IMG/VR virus record: IMGVR_UViG_3300044796_000042
Coordinates: 1 to 43,998 of that record
DNA: 43,998 nt
From: a virus
Direction: 5' to 3' (one strand)
The notes under the pieces are model-generated. The model was not told the origin of the DNA. It made no database searches and saw nothing but the letters and a program-made list of their open reading frames with translations. The first letter of the stretch is position 1; each line of letters opens with the position of its first letter. A program made the translations under genes and the position numbers. Of the stretch, positions 23,576-30,799 are shown piece by piece.

Positions 23576-24391
23576 ATGCAAAAAGTAACCACTCAGGCTG
23601 AATTCGACAAAGCTCTTGCAGCTGGTGATTCGGAAATCGAGATCGGCGCCGAGATCAAGTTCAGCATCAATATACCCCTTGATCGTTACCTCAAAATTTT
23701 TACCAGCCTAAACAATATTTTCGAATTTTTGGGCGTTTCCGCGCCGACGATCGTGTCGCGGGGAAGCTCCGCGCCGAGGATCGAGTCGTGGGAAAGCTCC
23801 GCGCCGACGATCGAGTCGTGGGAAAGCTCCGCGCCGACGATCGTGTCGCGGGGAAGCTCCGCGCCGAGGATCGAGTCGTGGGGAAGCTCCGCGCCGACGA
23901 TCGAAGCCAGAGGGTATGTTCAGCTCTCCCTAACTGGAAAAATCACCGCGAAGCTGGGAGCGAAATGCCACGCCGTTTTACATAAGGGAGCAAAAGTCAA
24001 AGGAGGCTCCAGCGTTAAGGTGGAGATCAAAAACGGCGAGGATTGGTGCGAATATTACGGCGTCGAGGTGAAAAAGGGTGTTGCGATTCTCTACAAGGGC
24101 GTCCGCAACGATTATGCCTCTGGGCGTGATGCGAGCTTTTTCTACAAGCCAGGAACGCAGCCAAAAGCGTCTCAATACGATGACGCCGAATGTTCCTATG
24201 GACTTCACTTCGTGCCGCATCCCCGCATGGCGCGGGAGTTTTATGATGCGCCCGATATGAAATGGCTGGCATGCCCCGTTAAAGTCAAGGATTTGCTGGT
24301 TTTCCCAGAAGGGAGTTATCCGAACAAGGCGAAGGTCCAGGGCGTGTGCGCCAAAATTTGGGAAGTCAACGAAGATGGAGAAAAACTATGA
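23576..24391 (+). CDS. DUF7666-like protein with tandem 10-residue repeats
   Basis: 271 residues from ATG 23576 (CAGGAAA upstream). Residues about 1-55 form a small N-terminal domain (TTQAEFDKALAAGDSEIEI). Residues about 56-110 are tandem 10-residue repeats of the type SSAPTIESWE/SSAPTIVSRG, which probably form a beta-solenoid. The C-terminal part (about 150-271: GVAILYKGV, CSYGLHFVPHPRMAREF, WLACPVKVKDLLVFP, KVQGVCAKIWEV) follows the DUF7666 pattern found in many phages. Its function is unknown. Its stop overlaps the next start as ATGA. Confidence 0.65.
   Translation: MQKVTTQAEFDKALAAGDSEIEIGAEIKFSINIPLDRYLKIFTSLNNIFEFLGVSAPTIVSRGSSAPRIESWESSAPTIESWESSAPTIVSRGSSAPRIESWGSSAPTIEARGYVQLSLTGKITAKLGAKCHAVLHKGAKVKGGSSVKVEIKNGEDWCEYYGVEVKKGVAILYKGVRNDYASGRDASFFYKPGTQPKASQYDDAECSYGLHFVPHPRMAREFYDAPDMKWLACPVKVKDLLVFPEGSYPNKAKVQGVCAKIWEVNEDGEKL
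23741..23905 (+). repeat. Tandem 30-bp coding repeat with 90-bp higher order
   Basis: Units start at 23741, 23771, 23801, 23831, 23861 and 23891 (the last partial). Each begins GCGCCGA-SG-ATCG and ends AAGCTCC. Unit 4 is identical to unit 1, unit 5 differs from unit 2 by one base, and unit 6 starts like unit 3. This suggests that a 90-bp block was duplicated. The repeats stay in frame and code for the solenoid-like part of the DUF7666-like protein. Confidence 0.85.
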
Positions 24392-26627: not shown

Positions 26628-26890
26628 ACCGCGATAATTGGCCTGTTGAAAAGTTCGGAATCCGACCAGCCGGAAAACCAGACGAGTGTTTTTATTGCCG
26701 CCAGAAAAGCGGTGATCAACATGCTCCAGAGTGCGTGATCCGCGAGAGGACGGTGCTGGTCGATGTGATCATCCAGATGGTGATGACGGTACCGGAAAAA
26801 TGGACGCCTGATACCATCGAGTTCAGTCTCAACGAAAGCAGCTCGTGCGCGAATAATATGGGATTTATATACTTGACTAGCCAAGGCTAA
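26624..26890 (+). pseudogene. Early protein truncated by the IS1595 element
   Basis: The frame starts at the ATG overlapping the previous stop and gives 88 residues, but only 1-78 belong to the phage; MGFIYLTSQG at the end is encoded by the transposon's left inverted repeat. The phage part has CFYCRQKSGDQHAPECVIR, a Cys/His cluster that should bind zinc, followed by a beta strand and VPEKWTPDTIEF. The protein looks cut in the middle of a conserved fold. Whether the remnant still works is unclear. Confidence 0.7.
26860..26884 (+). repeat. Left terminal inverted repeat of the IS1595 element
   Basis: It starts GGGATTTATATA and contains TTGACT and GCCAA. Against the reverse complement of 30538-30562 it matches 22 of 25 bases. 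The repeat holds the -35 box of the transposase promoter. Confidence 0.85.
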
Positions 26891-26901
26891 TGCGCTATAT
26901 T
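26873..26901 (+). promoter_or_regulatory. Sigma-70-like promoter of the transposase operon
   Basis: TTGACT (26873-26878), a 17-base spacer and TATATT (26896-26901) form a near-consensus promoter, with the -35 box inside the inverted repeat. TAGCCAAGG occurs twice (26878-26886 and 26913-26921) around it, and CTAAT/ATTAG flanks the -10. These could be operator sites for self-control; AGGGAG follows as ribosome site. Confidence 0.7.
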
Positions 26902-26930
26902 AGGTAGCAGATTAGCCAAGGGAGTCAGTC

Positions 26931-27857
26931 ATGCCAGCCAAGAAAAAACAGCCCGAAAAAGTCAGCCTCTATGAGTTCTTCAAAAGATTTCCTGATGAAG
27001 AATCGGCTCGCTTGTTTTTTGAGAATCGCCGCTGGCCGGAAGGCGCTGCTTGCCCTCATTGCCAAAGCGCGGATGTTTCCGAATGCAAAGATCATAAGCC
27101 TATGGCGTATCGTTGCCGCAACTGTCGGAAACATTTTAGCGTTCGGACGAACACAGTCCTTGCGGAAGGCAAGATAGGGCTTCATAAATGGCTTATGGCG
27201 ATTTACATGCTCCATACATCACGCAAGGGCGTGTCCAGTGTCCAGATGGCAAAGGAAATCGGCGTGACGCAAAAGACAGCGTGGTTCCTTTGTCACCGCA
27301 TTCGTGAGGCAATGAAGCAACGTGGTGGCTTGTTCGGGGGCACCGTCGAGGTTGATGAGACTTACATCGGCGGCAAAGAAAAAAACAAGCACGTCTCGAA
27401 AAAACTTCGCGCCGGTCGCGGGGCTGTCGGCAAAACACCTGTTTTTGGTATGCGCCAGCGCAATGGGGTCGTGAGGGCTTTTCCGGTAGAAGCTACCGAT
27501 AAAGAAACTTTGCAGTCGGCCATTGCCGAGAACATAGAACAAGGCTCCACAATCTATAGCGACTCGCATAAAGCATATGAAGGTATCACCGGATACCGGC
27601 ATGAGGCCGTGTGCCATAGCGTCGGCGAATACGTCCGCGATCAAGCCCATACAAACGGCGTTGAGTCGTTTTGGGCGTTGCTCAAGCGGGGTTACTACGG
27701 AGTTCACCATTTTATGAGCGAAAAACATCTGCATCGTTATGTGAACGAATTTTCCCATCGGCACAACACAGCGCAGATGGGGATGATTGACTCCATTGGC
27801 GTGACGATTGACGGGATGGTAGGACGCAGACTTTGCTACGAGGAACTCACGGCATGA
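26931..27857 (+). CDS. IS1595-family transposase
   Basis: 308 residues. The N-terminal zinc ribbon has CPHC and CRNC (about residues 42-65), followed by a helix-turn-helix (about 90-125). The DDE-type core has Asp142 in VEVDETYIGGKE, Asp211 in YSDSHKAY and Glu245 in HTNGVESFWALLKRG, the last a typical IS1595 motif. It would bind the terminal repeats and move the element. Length and motifs look complete. The stop overlaps the start of the S-subunit gene (ATGA), so cargo and transposase are coupled. Confidence 0.9.
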   Translation: MPAKKKQPEKVSLYEFFKRFPDEESARLFFENRRWPEGAACPHCQSADVSECKDHKPMAYRCRNCRKHFSVRTNTVLAEGKIGLHKWLMAIYMLHTSRKGVSSVQMAKEIGVTQKTAWFLCHRIREAMKQRGGLFGGTVEVDETYIGGKEKNKHVSKKLRAGRGAVGKTPVFGMRQRNGVVRAFPVEATDKETLQSAIAENIEQGSTIYSDSHKAYEGITGYRHEAVCHSVGEYVRDQAHTNGVESFWALLKRGYYGVHHFMSEKHLHRYVNEFSHRHNTAQMGMIDSIGVTIDGMVGRRLCYEELTA

Positions 27858-28702
27858 AGCAGAAGCAGGGCGCGAAAGGTAGAACCGCAAGCAATGAACT
27901 CCACGGTCGGTTTGACGACATGGTTGATGCTGTCCTCGGTGTTCCTGAAAAAGTAAAAAAGACGCTCGTAAAAGATAAGGCTGTTGTCGAAACGTGGTCA
28001 GTTCCGTTGCAGGATATTTATGACAATCCAAATATGCGACTTGATGCAACCCATTACGATAGGCAAACCGCCGCCGCCTTGGATGAACTGAATAAATCGA
28101 ATTTTCCCTTGAAGCCTTTGTCAGAACTTGCCGCCGTAAATCTGCCGGGGCAATTCGTTCGTATATGGGCGAAGGATGAGGCGCACGGAATCCCTTACGT
28201 CAACGCAACCGACATGATGAGTCTAACCGGCATAGGAACGCTTGCCGGTGAACCCGGATTCCTGTCCCATGAATCCGAGGTTGATATTGATGAACTGACT
28301 ATCCACAAGGGATGGCTTTTACTGACATGCTCCGGCACCATCGGGCGCGTTTTCTATGTGCCGGAACGAATAGACGGATGGGTTGCGACGCATGACCTCA
28401 TTCGCATTATCCCGCATGATGATATTCCGGTTGGGTTTTTATATGCCTATCTGTCTTCGCCGATGGCGCAAAAGCAAATTGCAGGACATACGCATGGCGG
28501 CCAGATTGACCATGTAACGCATCATCAAGTCGGCGGCATTCTTGTCCCCGTTTTTCCGAAAGACAGGATGGCGGAAATACACAAGCAAGCTATGAAGGCG
28601 CTGAATCAAAGAGAGGAAGCCATAGCCACTCTTGCCAAGGCATCCGACGACATTCAGCAATCAATCAAAGCGAACAGCCGGGCAAAAAATGTCAAACGAT
28701 AA
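27854..28702 (+). CDS. Restriction-modification specificity (S) subunit, single target-recognition domain
   Basis: 282 residues from the ATG overlapping the transposase stop. After a helical N-terminal segment comes a target-recognition-type domain (about 100-240: PYVNATDMMSL, LTIHKGWLLLTCSGTIGR, IRIIPHDDIPVGFLYAYL, GQIDHVTHHQVGGILVPVF), then a coiled-coil-type helix (RMAEIHKQAMKALNQREEAI). Ordinary HsdS proteins have two such domains and about 400 residues, so this is a half-subunit that would need to dimerise. It supplies DNA-sequence recognition to the enzyme encoded next. Confidence 0.8.
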   Translation: MKQKQGAKGRTASNELHGRFDDMVDAVLGVPEKVKKTLVKDKAVVETWSVPLQDIYDNPNMRLDATHYDRQTAAALDELNKSNFPLKPLSELAAVNLPGQFVRIWAKDEAHGIPYVNATDMMSLTGIGTLAGEPGFLSHESEVDIDELTIHKGWLLLTCSGTIGRVFYVPERIDGWVATHDLIRIIPHDDIPVGFLYAYLSSPMAQKQIAGHTHGGQIDHVTHHQVGGILVPVFPKDRMAEIHKQAMKALNQREEAIATLAKASDDIQQSIKANSRAKNVKR

Positions 28703-30557
28703 TGTCACCTACCTAATTCCGCCCGGCAACATTCGGTGTTTCATCACGGGCAAGCTTCGCAAGGACACGCCAGAAGAAAATGTGCGCCAGCGTTGGGCGC
28801 GAAGCCTTGTTGAAGAATATGGATACCTGAAACAAGATATTATGATCGAATTTCCCATCCACATGGGAACAGCCAAAAAACGCGCCGACATTGTGATTTT
28901 TAAGCCGGGCGCAAAACAGGTGCAGGAAGAAATCACTATCATCATCGAAGCCAAGCGGGACGAGATTAAATTTTCTGATCCGAACAAAGGCGAAAGTCAG
29001 CTTAAAAGCTACATGGCGGCTAGTTCGTCCTGCAAATACGGACTTTGGGTTGGCAGCGACAGACGCGCCTATGAGAAGCAATCGGGCGGTGAATTTGCGC
29101 TGGTAAGCGACGTTCCCCGCGCCGGAGAGGAAAGGCCACGCCGCCCCGAACGTAAGGACTTGCAAGTCGCGCATGACCTCACTTCAATCTTTCGGCGTTG
29201 CCATAACTACATTCATGCAAACGGCGGCTTGCAGAAAGCGGAAGCTTTCCACGAAATGCTGAAACTTATTTTCTGCAAAATGTATGACGAGGAAGAAAGC
29301 TCGCTAGAACTGAATTTTGCCGTTGATCCAAAAGAGCAGCGTTCCGAAAGCGGCAGACGCCGTTTGATGGAAGATAGAGTCGAGCCTTTGTTTGAAAAAG
29401 TAAAAGTTCGCTACCCCTATATTTTCGGTAAAGATGAACGCCTGAAACTTGAACCTATAGTTCTGGCCTACATCGTTTCTGAAATGCAGTTTATTTCCCT
29501 GCTTGATACGGAAACAGATATTAAGGGCGCGGCCTATGAGGAACTGGTAGGGCAGAATCTTCGCGGCGACCGTGGCGAGTATTTTACGCCACGGAATGTT
29601 TGCGACATGACCGTAAAAATCATCCAGTCGATGTTTCCGCAACAGAAGCTTACCGAGGTGAAGGTTCTTGATTGTTGCTGCGGTACAGGTGGTTTTATCG
29701 TTTCATGGATCGACAATTTACGCCATATCCTCCGCGATCAAGAGATGGCGCGACACAGCAAAGATGTAGAAGGCAAAGTCCGTGACCGCATCCGCACAAC
29801 CTGCGCCCAAAATTTATTCGGCTTGGATGTAAACCCCTTTCTTGTGCGTACCGCGCAAATGAATCTGGTTATGCACGGCGACGGTTCGACAAATGTTTAC
29901 AGGGTTGATTCCTCTCGTTCTCCGGGCGAATGGACAGACGAGGAGGCGCGTCGCAAAATCCCCTATGGAAAAGCAGATGTTGTTTTGACAAACCCACCCT
30001 TCGGGTCAGAGGTCAAAATTGACGACGCGCATGTTCTTGATAGGTACGAACTTTCAAGGTGGGAATCGTCAAACATTCGGGCGTCATTGCCAGCCGAGCA
30101 ACTGTTTATCGAAACAGCAATGACGTTTTTGAGGGGGGGGGGCTTGCTTGGCATCGTCCTGCCTGACGGCATCCTGAATAATCCAGGACTTCGATTCCTG
30201 CGTTCTTGGCTTTTGCGCCGCGCCCGTATCGTGGCGTCGATTGATCTCCCAAAAGAGACATTCAGCGTAAGCGGCGGCGTCAATAATCCAAGCGTTCTTA
30301 TCGTGCAGAAATTCACGAAAGAGGAAGTTCAAAGGGCAAATGCCAACATCATAGAAAGCAGCAACATGGTTTTCATGGCCGCGCCCCGCACGGCTGGCAT
30401 CGACAAGCGCGGTAAGCAGATATTCCTGCGCCATGATGATGGAAGGGAACTTACCGACGATGAAGGCAATCGCTTTCTGGATGATGAAATATCTTCGATT
30501 CCAGAGCAATTTGCTAACTGGCTGAAAGATCACAAAGTTGGCCAGTCAACTATATAA
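28689..30557 (+). CDS. Fused nuclease and N6-adenine methyltransferase (R-M protein)
   Basis: 622 residues from the ATG at 28689, overlapping the S gene by 14 bases. The N-terminus (about 20-150) is a PD-(D/E)XK-type domain: Asp67 in RADIVIF and Glu87/Lys89 in IIEAKR. A helical linker follows, then a gamma-type N6-adenine methyltransferase with motif I (LDCCCGTGGF, Asp328), motif IV NPPFG (Asn435) and LPDGILNNPG. R and M in one chain with a separate S chain is the plan of BcgI-like type IIB enzymes; the length is also close. A G10 run at residues 482-485 could switch the frame. The gene ends in the right inverted repeat. Confidence 0.8.
   Translation: MSNDNVTYLIPPGNIRCFITGKLRKDTPEENVRQRWARSLVEEYGYLKQDIMIEFPIHMGTAKKRADIVIFKPGAKQVQEEITIIIEAKRDEIKFSDPNKGESQLKSYMAASSSCKYGLWVGSDRRAYEKQSGGEFALVSDVPRAGEERPRRPERKDLQVAHDLTSIFRRCHNYIHANGGLQKAEAFHEMLKLIFCKMYDEEESSLELNFAVDPKEQRSESGRRRLMEDRVEPLFEKVKVRYPYIFGKDERLKLEPIVLAYIVSEMQFISLLDTETDIKGAAYEELVGQNLRGDRGEYFTPRNVCDMTVKIIQSMFPQQKLTEVKVLDCCCGTGGFIVSWIDNLRHILRDQEMARHSKDVEGKVRDRIRTTCAQNLFGLDVNPFLVRTAQMNLVMHGDGSTNVYRVDSSRSPGEWTDEEARRKIPYGKADVVLTNPPFGSEVKIDDAHVLDRYELSRWESSNIRASLPAEQLFIETAMTFLRGGGLLGIVLPDGILNNPGLRFLRSWLLRRARIVASIDLPKETFSVSGGVNNPSVLIVQKFTKEEVQRANANIIESSNMVFMAAPRTAGIDKRGKQIFLRHDDGRELTDDEGNRFLDDEISSIPEQFANWLKDHKVGQSTI
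30133..30142 (+). repeat. G10 homopolymer inside the R-M gene
   Basis: Ten consecutive G residues lie in frame (Arg-Gly-Gly-Gly) after the catalytic NPPF motif. Runs of this length slip during replication, and one base gained or lost would truncate the protein at about residue 485. It is the longest homopolymer I noticed in the window. Confidence 0.85.
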
Positions 30558-30562
30558 GTCCC
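30538..30562 (-). repeat. Right terminal inverted repeat of the IS1595 element
   Basis: The reverse complement starts GGGACTTATATAG and carries TTGACTGGCCAA; only three positions differ from the left repeat. The stop codon of the R-M gene (30555-30557) lies inside it. Confidence 0.85.
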
Positions 30563-30799
30563 TTATATTTCTTCTTTTTTCTCCAAATTATTTGTTGGAT
30601 CAAAACGACAAACTTCTCCACTGATCGAAACTACTTCGACCTGCGCCGGCGTGCCGAGCACGAATCCCGCCATCTTTCTGGCGTCCTCCAGAACCTTGTC
30701 GACGGGCGTGCCTTGCGCGAGACCGGCGCGTGCATGCAGGAAGCAATTCAGGCGCAACCAGTTCTCCTGATCGATCAGAAAATCAGATTTTTGCGGCAT
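30563..30799 (-). CDS. Small protein abutting the transposon, unknown
   Basis: 78 residues from the ATG at 30797-30799, preceded by a strong AAGGAGG. The start overlaps the end of the upstream gene. The helical N-terminus (IDQENWLRLNCFLHARAGLA) is followed by GTPAQVEVVSISGEVCRFD and a charged end. The stop codon is the first triplet next to the transposon's right end, so the natural C-terminus may have been longer. No family recognised. Confidence 0.6.
   Translation of the reverse strand: MPQKSDFLIDQENWLRLNCFLHARAGLAQGTPVDKVLEDARKMAGFVLGTPAQVEVVSISGEVCRFDPTNNLEKKEEI

Follow-up and report, generated by a model that had tools for sequence, protein, structure and literature searches.

Insertion sequences of the IS1595 family are already known to carry passenger genes, and islands, prophages and plasmids are recognised as sites at which defence genes cluster. 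To our knowledge, it is mostly unexplained how a single defence module comes to enter a phage genome. Among restriction-modification (R-M) systems, the Type IIB enzymes BcgI and BsaXI consist of a fused PD-(D/E)XK nuclease and N6-adenine methylase, together with a separate specificity subunit, S (PMC11997821, PMC3874165). BstA is a proven anti-phage abortive-infection protein of prophages, and transposases are not mentioned in the main text of the paper concerned (PMC8585504). No papers describing R-M genes or BstA as cargo of IS1595 elements were found in a search of titles, abstracts and term counts, with most subscription papers lying outside this search.

The window, that is, the whole stretch of DNA that was analysed, is the 43,998-base virus record IMGVR_UViG_3300044796_000042. 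Matches to TerL, portal, tail sheath, major head protein, exonuclease VIII and RecT were found in this contig and correspond to tailed-phage genes. A phage-protein ORF with repeated SSAPTIESWE-type units was also observed at 23576-24391. The element considered here spans 26860-30562, and its GC content is 49.9% versus 54-56% in the phage. Its features, and those of its sister elements, are collected in Table 1.

Table 1. Features of the element in the window and cargo of sister elements at other loci.
Feature	Locus	Position	Strand	Remarks
Left flank AATAATAT	Window	26852..26859	.	Unlike right flank
Left terminal inverted repeat GGGATTTATATACTTGACTAGCCAA	Window	26860..26884	+	22/25 versus right repeat
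Candidate operon promoter TTGACT-17-TATATT	Window	26873..26901	+	10/12 consensus match; -35 within left repeat
IS1595-family transposase, 308 aa, zinc ribbon and ISXO2-like DDE domain	Window	26931..27857	+	Profile matches
S-type specificity protein, 282 aa, one target-recognition domain and long C-terminal helix	Window	27854..28702	+	Methylase_S 3.7e-8
Cargo leader NELHGRFDDMVDAVLGVP near S start	Window	27893..27946	+	Common to C5-methyltransferase of L140
Fused nuclease-methyltransferase RM, 622 aa	Window	28689..30557	+	HSDR_N_2 residues 28-126, N6_Mtase residues 276-559
Right terminal inverted repeat	Window	30538..30562	-	Encodes last RM residues and stop
Right flank TTATATTT	Window	30563..30570	.	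Unlike left flank
Complete-looking Type II pair: leader-bearing N4/N6 methylase and MvaI/BcnI-type nuclease	L111/L112	5931-8510
Element remnant: C5-methylase, next ORF looks decayed	L140	272-1750		Usual repeat at end
IS1595, Dam-type methylase (leader-like start) and PDDEXK_11 nuclease	L150	G1096:C74:14400-20300	Reverse
BstA cargo with extra leader	L009	5908-8064		Exact 8-bp duplication
BstA cargo with extra leader	L131	12160-14231		No right end identified
KilA-N proteins related to BstA	L006, L010, L109
P63C protein and PemK/MazF-like toxin (cargo gene 2)	L008, L108			Inside repeats
P63C protein and, on opposite strand, ClpP-like SDH-type serine protease	L110/L113			Inside 25/25 repeats

The preliminary description of this DNA had proposed that inverted repeats identical at 22 of 25 bases enclose a transposase, an S gene and a fused nuclease-methyltransferase, and this anatomy withstood examination: the best of 300 dinucleotide-preserving shuffles of the same flanks reached only 20. 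Its statements that the RM gene ends inside the right repeat and that the three genes are coupled were also borne out. The RM stop codon (30555-30557) lies within the repeat, and the transposase, S and RM genes, all co-directional on the + strand, overlap at their ends by 4 nt (ATGA) and then by 14 nt. No third copy of the repeat is present within the 43,998-base window; since it contains a single transposase and no more than these two isolated repeats, a composite transposon, with an IS copy on either side, was ruled out. The left repeat and its counterpart in a related element of an Acidobacteriaceae genome, described below, are unlike at 2 of their 25 bases. The sequence listed in Table 1 as a candidate promoter may serve all three genes as an operon; promoter-like sites are no commoner in the region than expected by chance, and TTGACT-17-CATAAT occupies the equivalent position in the Acidobacteriaceae copy.

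Assignment of the transposase to the IS1595 family follows from its profile scores: NF033547 (1.7e-60, 204 bits, cut-off 75), PF12762 (4.8e-43, 147 bits, cut-off 27) and PF12760 (38 bits, cut-off 25.4). In an alignment of the window protein with those of five other members, the Cys residues of the ribbon, D142, D211, N242, E245 and K252 are invariant. Both the combination of an ISXO2-like DDE domain with an N-terminal zinc ribbon and the terminal inverted repeats bounding the unit, which have similar counterparts in sister elements, are those characteristic of the family. The 8-bp target duplication is not visible at the window copy, where the two flanks differ, a point that the preliminary description does not mention; exact duplications were found in relatives, namely the Acidobacteriaceae element (L013/L002) and L007 (TTTAAATT), L008 (ATTAAATA), L009 (GTACGTAA), L010 (TAAAAAAA) and L147 (TTTACTTC). 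Judged by these sequence features, the window element can be classed as an IS1595 transposon, with the duplication seen in its relatives and not in the window copy itself. Rearrangement after entry, or old age, may account for the missing duplication. In the search for an empty site, the flanking 313-aa gene gave no confirmed relatives among viral contigs, and the terminase gave relatives at most 54% identical, so that no empty site could be shown for the window copy.

The transposase family, the zinc ribbon, the terminal repeats, the 8-bp duplications of the relatives and the position of extra genes between the transposase and the right end are shared with IS1595 elements carrying passengers. 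The element differs from these in its cargo, S plus a fused nuclease-methyltransferase, in the use of the same slot by several unrelated defence-type modules, and in a leader common to the N-termini of the first cargo proteins.

In its probable mode of action, the cargo itself resembles Type IIB enzymes. The best match of RM in the PDB was RM.BsaXI (Type IIB, 1e-24), and all its motifs are intact and invariant in four aligned relatives: D67...E87xK89 in the nuclease, and DCCCGTGGF and NPPF in the methylase. As in BcgI and BsaXI, a fused nuclease and N6-adenine methylase with conserved motifs and no translocase is accompanied by a separate S subunit. The latter was assigned by domain and fold, with no sequence match in the PDB; its predicted model (pLDDT 52, a low confidence at which it serves as support only) resembles HsdS and the S subunit of BsaXI. 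The model of RM (pLDDT 37) was too poor to use. Unlike the S of Type IIB systems, that of the window has one recognition domain instead of two in tandem, and it aligns with each half of full-length S relatives of 458-495 aa. In ordinary relatives, at 38-40% identity, RM comes first and is followed by such a two-domain S, whereas the window has the reversed order, S before RM. The R-M system called complete in the preliminary description is complete in its motifs, and its S is only half-size. Because the two-domain S of Type IIB was sought and not found, the cargo is likened by us to Type IIB in its probable working and is not classed as a member. A run of ten G at 30133-30142 in the RM gene, absent from relatives, was noted as a possible phase-variation switch or assembly-sensitive spot.

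Two other known classes were considered and rejected. No separate HsdR with helicase/translocase is encoded in 26860-30562, which excludes Type I R-M. Among curated models, the nearest to RM and S are MAD2 (2.7e-158) and MAD5 (4.4e-52) of the MADS system, respectively, with scores that stay below the NCBIfam cut-offs (528 versus 720 bits and 177 versus 400 bits). Only these two related genes are present in the element, the other MADS genes are absent, and S is half as long; among the relatives, at 35% identity, is a MADS-like locus that also contains kinase and AAA genes.

Evidence that the cargo belongs to the transposon came from independent copies. A scan of 84,980 genomes gave four relatives of RM at 75-83% identity. 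In an Acidobacteriaceae MAG, the three genes of the element recur with their order unchanged, the transposase, S and RM being 69, 67 and 75% identical to those of the window. The right end of this element, on contig C24 (L002), reads ...GTATATAATTCCC followed at the boundary by TTTGTTTT; on contig C53 (L013), its left end reads TTTGTTTT followed by GGGAATTATATACTTGACTAGCCA. The two ends form perfect 24-bp repeats, and an 8-bp sequence, TTTGTTTT, is exactly duplicated outside GGG...CCC. The element is split over these two contigs: its transposase is broken at CCTAGGG, after which both contigs run into other sequence, and this break is probably a second insertion. We infer that the duplication joins C24 and C53. 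In the transposase tree, the window and Acidobacteriaceae proteins are sisters (support 97/95); with the similar divergence of all three genes, the unit therefore appears to have travelled together. Since the same genes lie in this MAG within perfect repeats and an exact duplication, the cargo is part of the transposon, as the preliminary description had supposed. The repeat pair with three genes that it proposed to look for elsewhere was, in this way, found in an unrelated genome with the same gene order and the same right boundary.

A similar right end follows the RM stop directly at L002, L003 and L005. At L005, S and RM are accompanied by the right repeat only, with no transposase, and at L004 they have neither transposase nor recognisable repeats; it follows that the S-RM pair can persist without the mobile part. 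Homologous S and R-M genes with neither transposase nor repeats nearby, named in the preliminary description as evidence against its reading, are thus present in part, at L004 and, apart from its right repeat, at L005; this does not apply to the window or L002. It was observed by eye that the S-RM genes of L004 (4000-6004) have the 3' end of a tRNA and a HicAB-like pair as neighbours, so that a tRNA-linked island may be a further vehicle for them. No further close-identity copies of S-RM were found in viral contigs, plasmids, phages and E. coli; a sample of about 790 genomes from three phyla likewise yielded none besides those of the seed genomes.

Searches with the transposase and the repeats revealed sister elements, some in viral contigs and others in Acidobacteria, with ends that are GGGANYTATATAYNTRVCTAGCC or close to it. 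The cargo in their slot behind the transposase is listed in Table 1. Of the three loci with other R-M-type genes, L111/L112 has no visible 8-bp duplication, and only the right end of L150 is recognisable. The assignment of the cargo of L009 and L131 to BstA is based on PADLOC (1e-118 and 1e-112, respectively). The P63C protein and PemK/MazF-like toxin of L008 and L108 may together form a new pair of the toxin-antitoxin or abortive-infection type. In some members from Acidobacteria, no cargo resembling these is evident. In the tree of transposases, neighbouring branches carry unlike cargo, which shows the slot to be exchangeable; support is weak at several forks. Two peculiar loci were also recorded: at L134 (6827-7953), a copy of about 1.1 kb, bounded by perfect repeats, has transposase and cargo joined in a single reading frame and is apparently an internal deletion derivative, and at L132 a second, distant IS1595 transposase (34%) lies beside a truncated BstA fragment on the same viral contig (1231-1680 and 1685-2575).

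The first cargo protein in most elements opens with a related leader of about 20 aa, whatever body comes after it. In most elements it has the form KIIEPI-xxx-F-xx-VV-xx-LV, and in the S proteins and the C5-methylase the variant DLYG-x-F-xxx-VDAVL-x-AP. The leaders of the window S and of the C5-methyltransferase of L140 match at z = 6.1, a value reached in 0 of 300 shuffles. When the first 40 residues of 14 cargo proteins were compared, 45 of the 76 pairs with different bodies exceeded z = 3, and only 1 and 2 pairs did so for internal and C-terminal control segments, by which a chance origin is rejected. Codon positions of the leader differ by 0.40/0.26/0.70, a pattern that places the constraint on the peptide. 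The view that it is a mere DNA overlap with the transposase was also rejected, the overlap being a few bases and third codon positions nearly saturated. The family domains do not include the leader: the alignment between BstA of phage BTP1 and the L009 protein begins at residue 37 of the latter, so that BTP1 BstA has no leader, and full-length S relatives lack it too. Its role as a docking or adaptor peptide is a guess. One slot with interchangeable cargo and a common cargo leader is the wider point, unseen in the preliminary description.

The reading we prefer, at a probability of about 0.78, is that of an IS1595 unit transposon that transports an R-M module of Type IIB-like character, with transposase, S and RM as one repeat-bounded operon. 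Being read from the left end, such an operon would let the transposase carry the R-M genes along with itself, acting on both ends and moving everything between them, normally with an 8-bp target duplication. S and RM would be translated from the transposase operon, and RM subunits, by analogy with BcgI and BsaXI, which as Type IIB enzymes cut DNA at either side of their site, would methylate and cut DNA as directed by S. As S has one recognition domain, two half-size chains would be needed, giving a symmetric bipartite site. Methylated DNA of the carrier would be safe and incoming unmethylated DNA cut, so that the carrier phage or lysogen might be protected from competitors and loss of the element punished. 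The cargo probably protects or stabilises the carrier of the element, and the expected gain is superinfection defence, addiction or both. This reading is favoured by other members of the subfamily having exact duplications and other R-M cargo in the slot; against it stand the missing duplication in the window, the loci L004 and L005 without transposase, the distribution of the Acidobacteriaceae copy over two contigs and the half-size S, unlike the S of characterised Type IIB enzymes.

Some of the same observations could be explained otherwise. If R-M genes merely lay beside an IS1595 element by chance, were not mobilised by it and bordered on a fortuitous right repeat, the S-RM genes without transposase at L004 and L005 and the missing duplication would be natural. 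This coincidence is nearly refuted by the Acidobacteriaceae element, with its same repeats, same boundary and exact duplication, by the end of RM within the repeat, by the right end beside RM in L003 and L005, and by a leader common to other cargo of the subfamily. Far less improbable, and still rather unlikely, is that the copy is dead, immobile in the phage with only its R-M genes under selection: imperfect repeats, the lack of a target duplication and the one-repeat S-RM remnant at L005 agree with this, and the complete transposase frame with invariant catalytic residues and the intactness of all three genes argue against it.

Other alternatives concern the function of the cargo. According to Kobayashi, Type II R-M systems reportedly can act as selfish addiction modules, and with a PemK/MazF-like toxin in two sister elements it is possible, if less probable than not, that R-M, like this toxin, is kept because cells or phages that lose the element are killed, with no gain for the phage. 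The presence of anti-phage BstA (PMC8585504) in the same slot of sister elements fits defence better, and both may hold. Anti-restriction methylation is frequent in phages, and MAD2 and MAD5 are the closest curated models; an S-RM module related to these might only mark DNA and so shield the element or phage against host restriction, its HSDR_N-like domain being non-cutting. We consider this unlikely, the least probable of the functional alternatives, in view of the scores below the cut-offs, the absence of other MADS genes between the repeats, the invariance of D67, E87 and K89 in four aligned relatives and the dedicated restriction nucleases beside methylases in sister elements.

Returning to the unit transposon with R-M cargo, it may be concluded that its novelty lies in being an IS1595 variant with S and fused R-M genes, from a little-described group that swaps defence genes, passenger genes as such being known in the family. 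We put forward only tentatively, with the odds somewhat against it, the broader idea that single defence modules (R-M, BstA, toxins) are conveyed between phages and bacteria by this IS1595 subgroup as their dedicated carrier, with one slot behind the transposase and the leader grafted on as an adaptor, e.g., docking cargo to the transposase or the ends. A transposon of 2-4 kb with an exchangeable defence slot is a concrete, testable vehicle for single modules, and a common leader on unrelated cargo would, if true, connect a transposon with its passengers in a new way.
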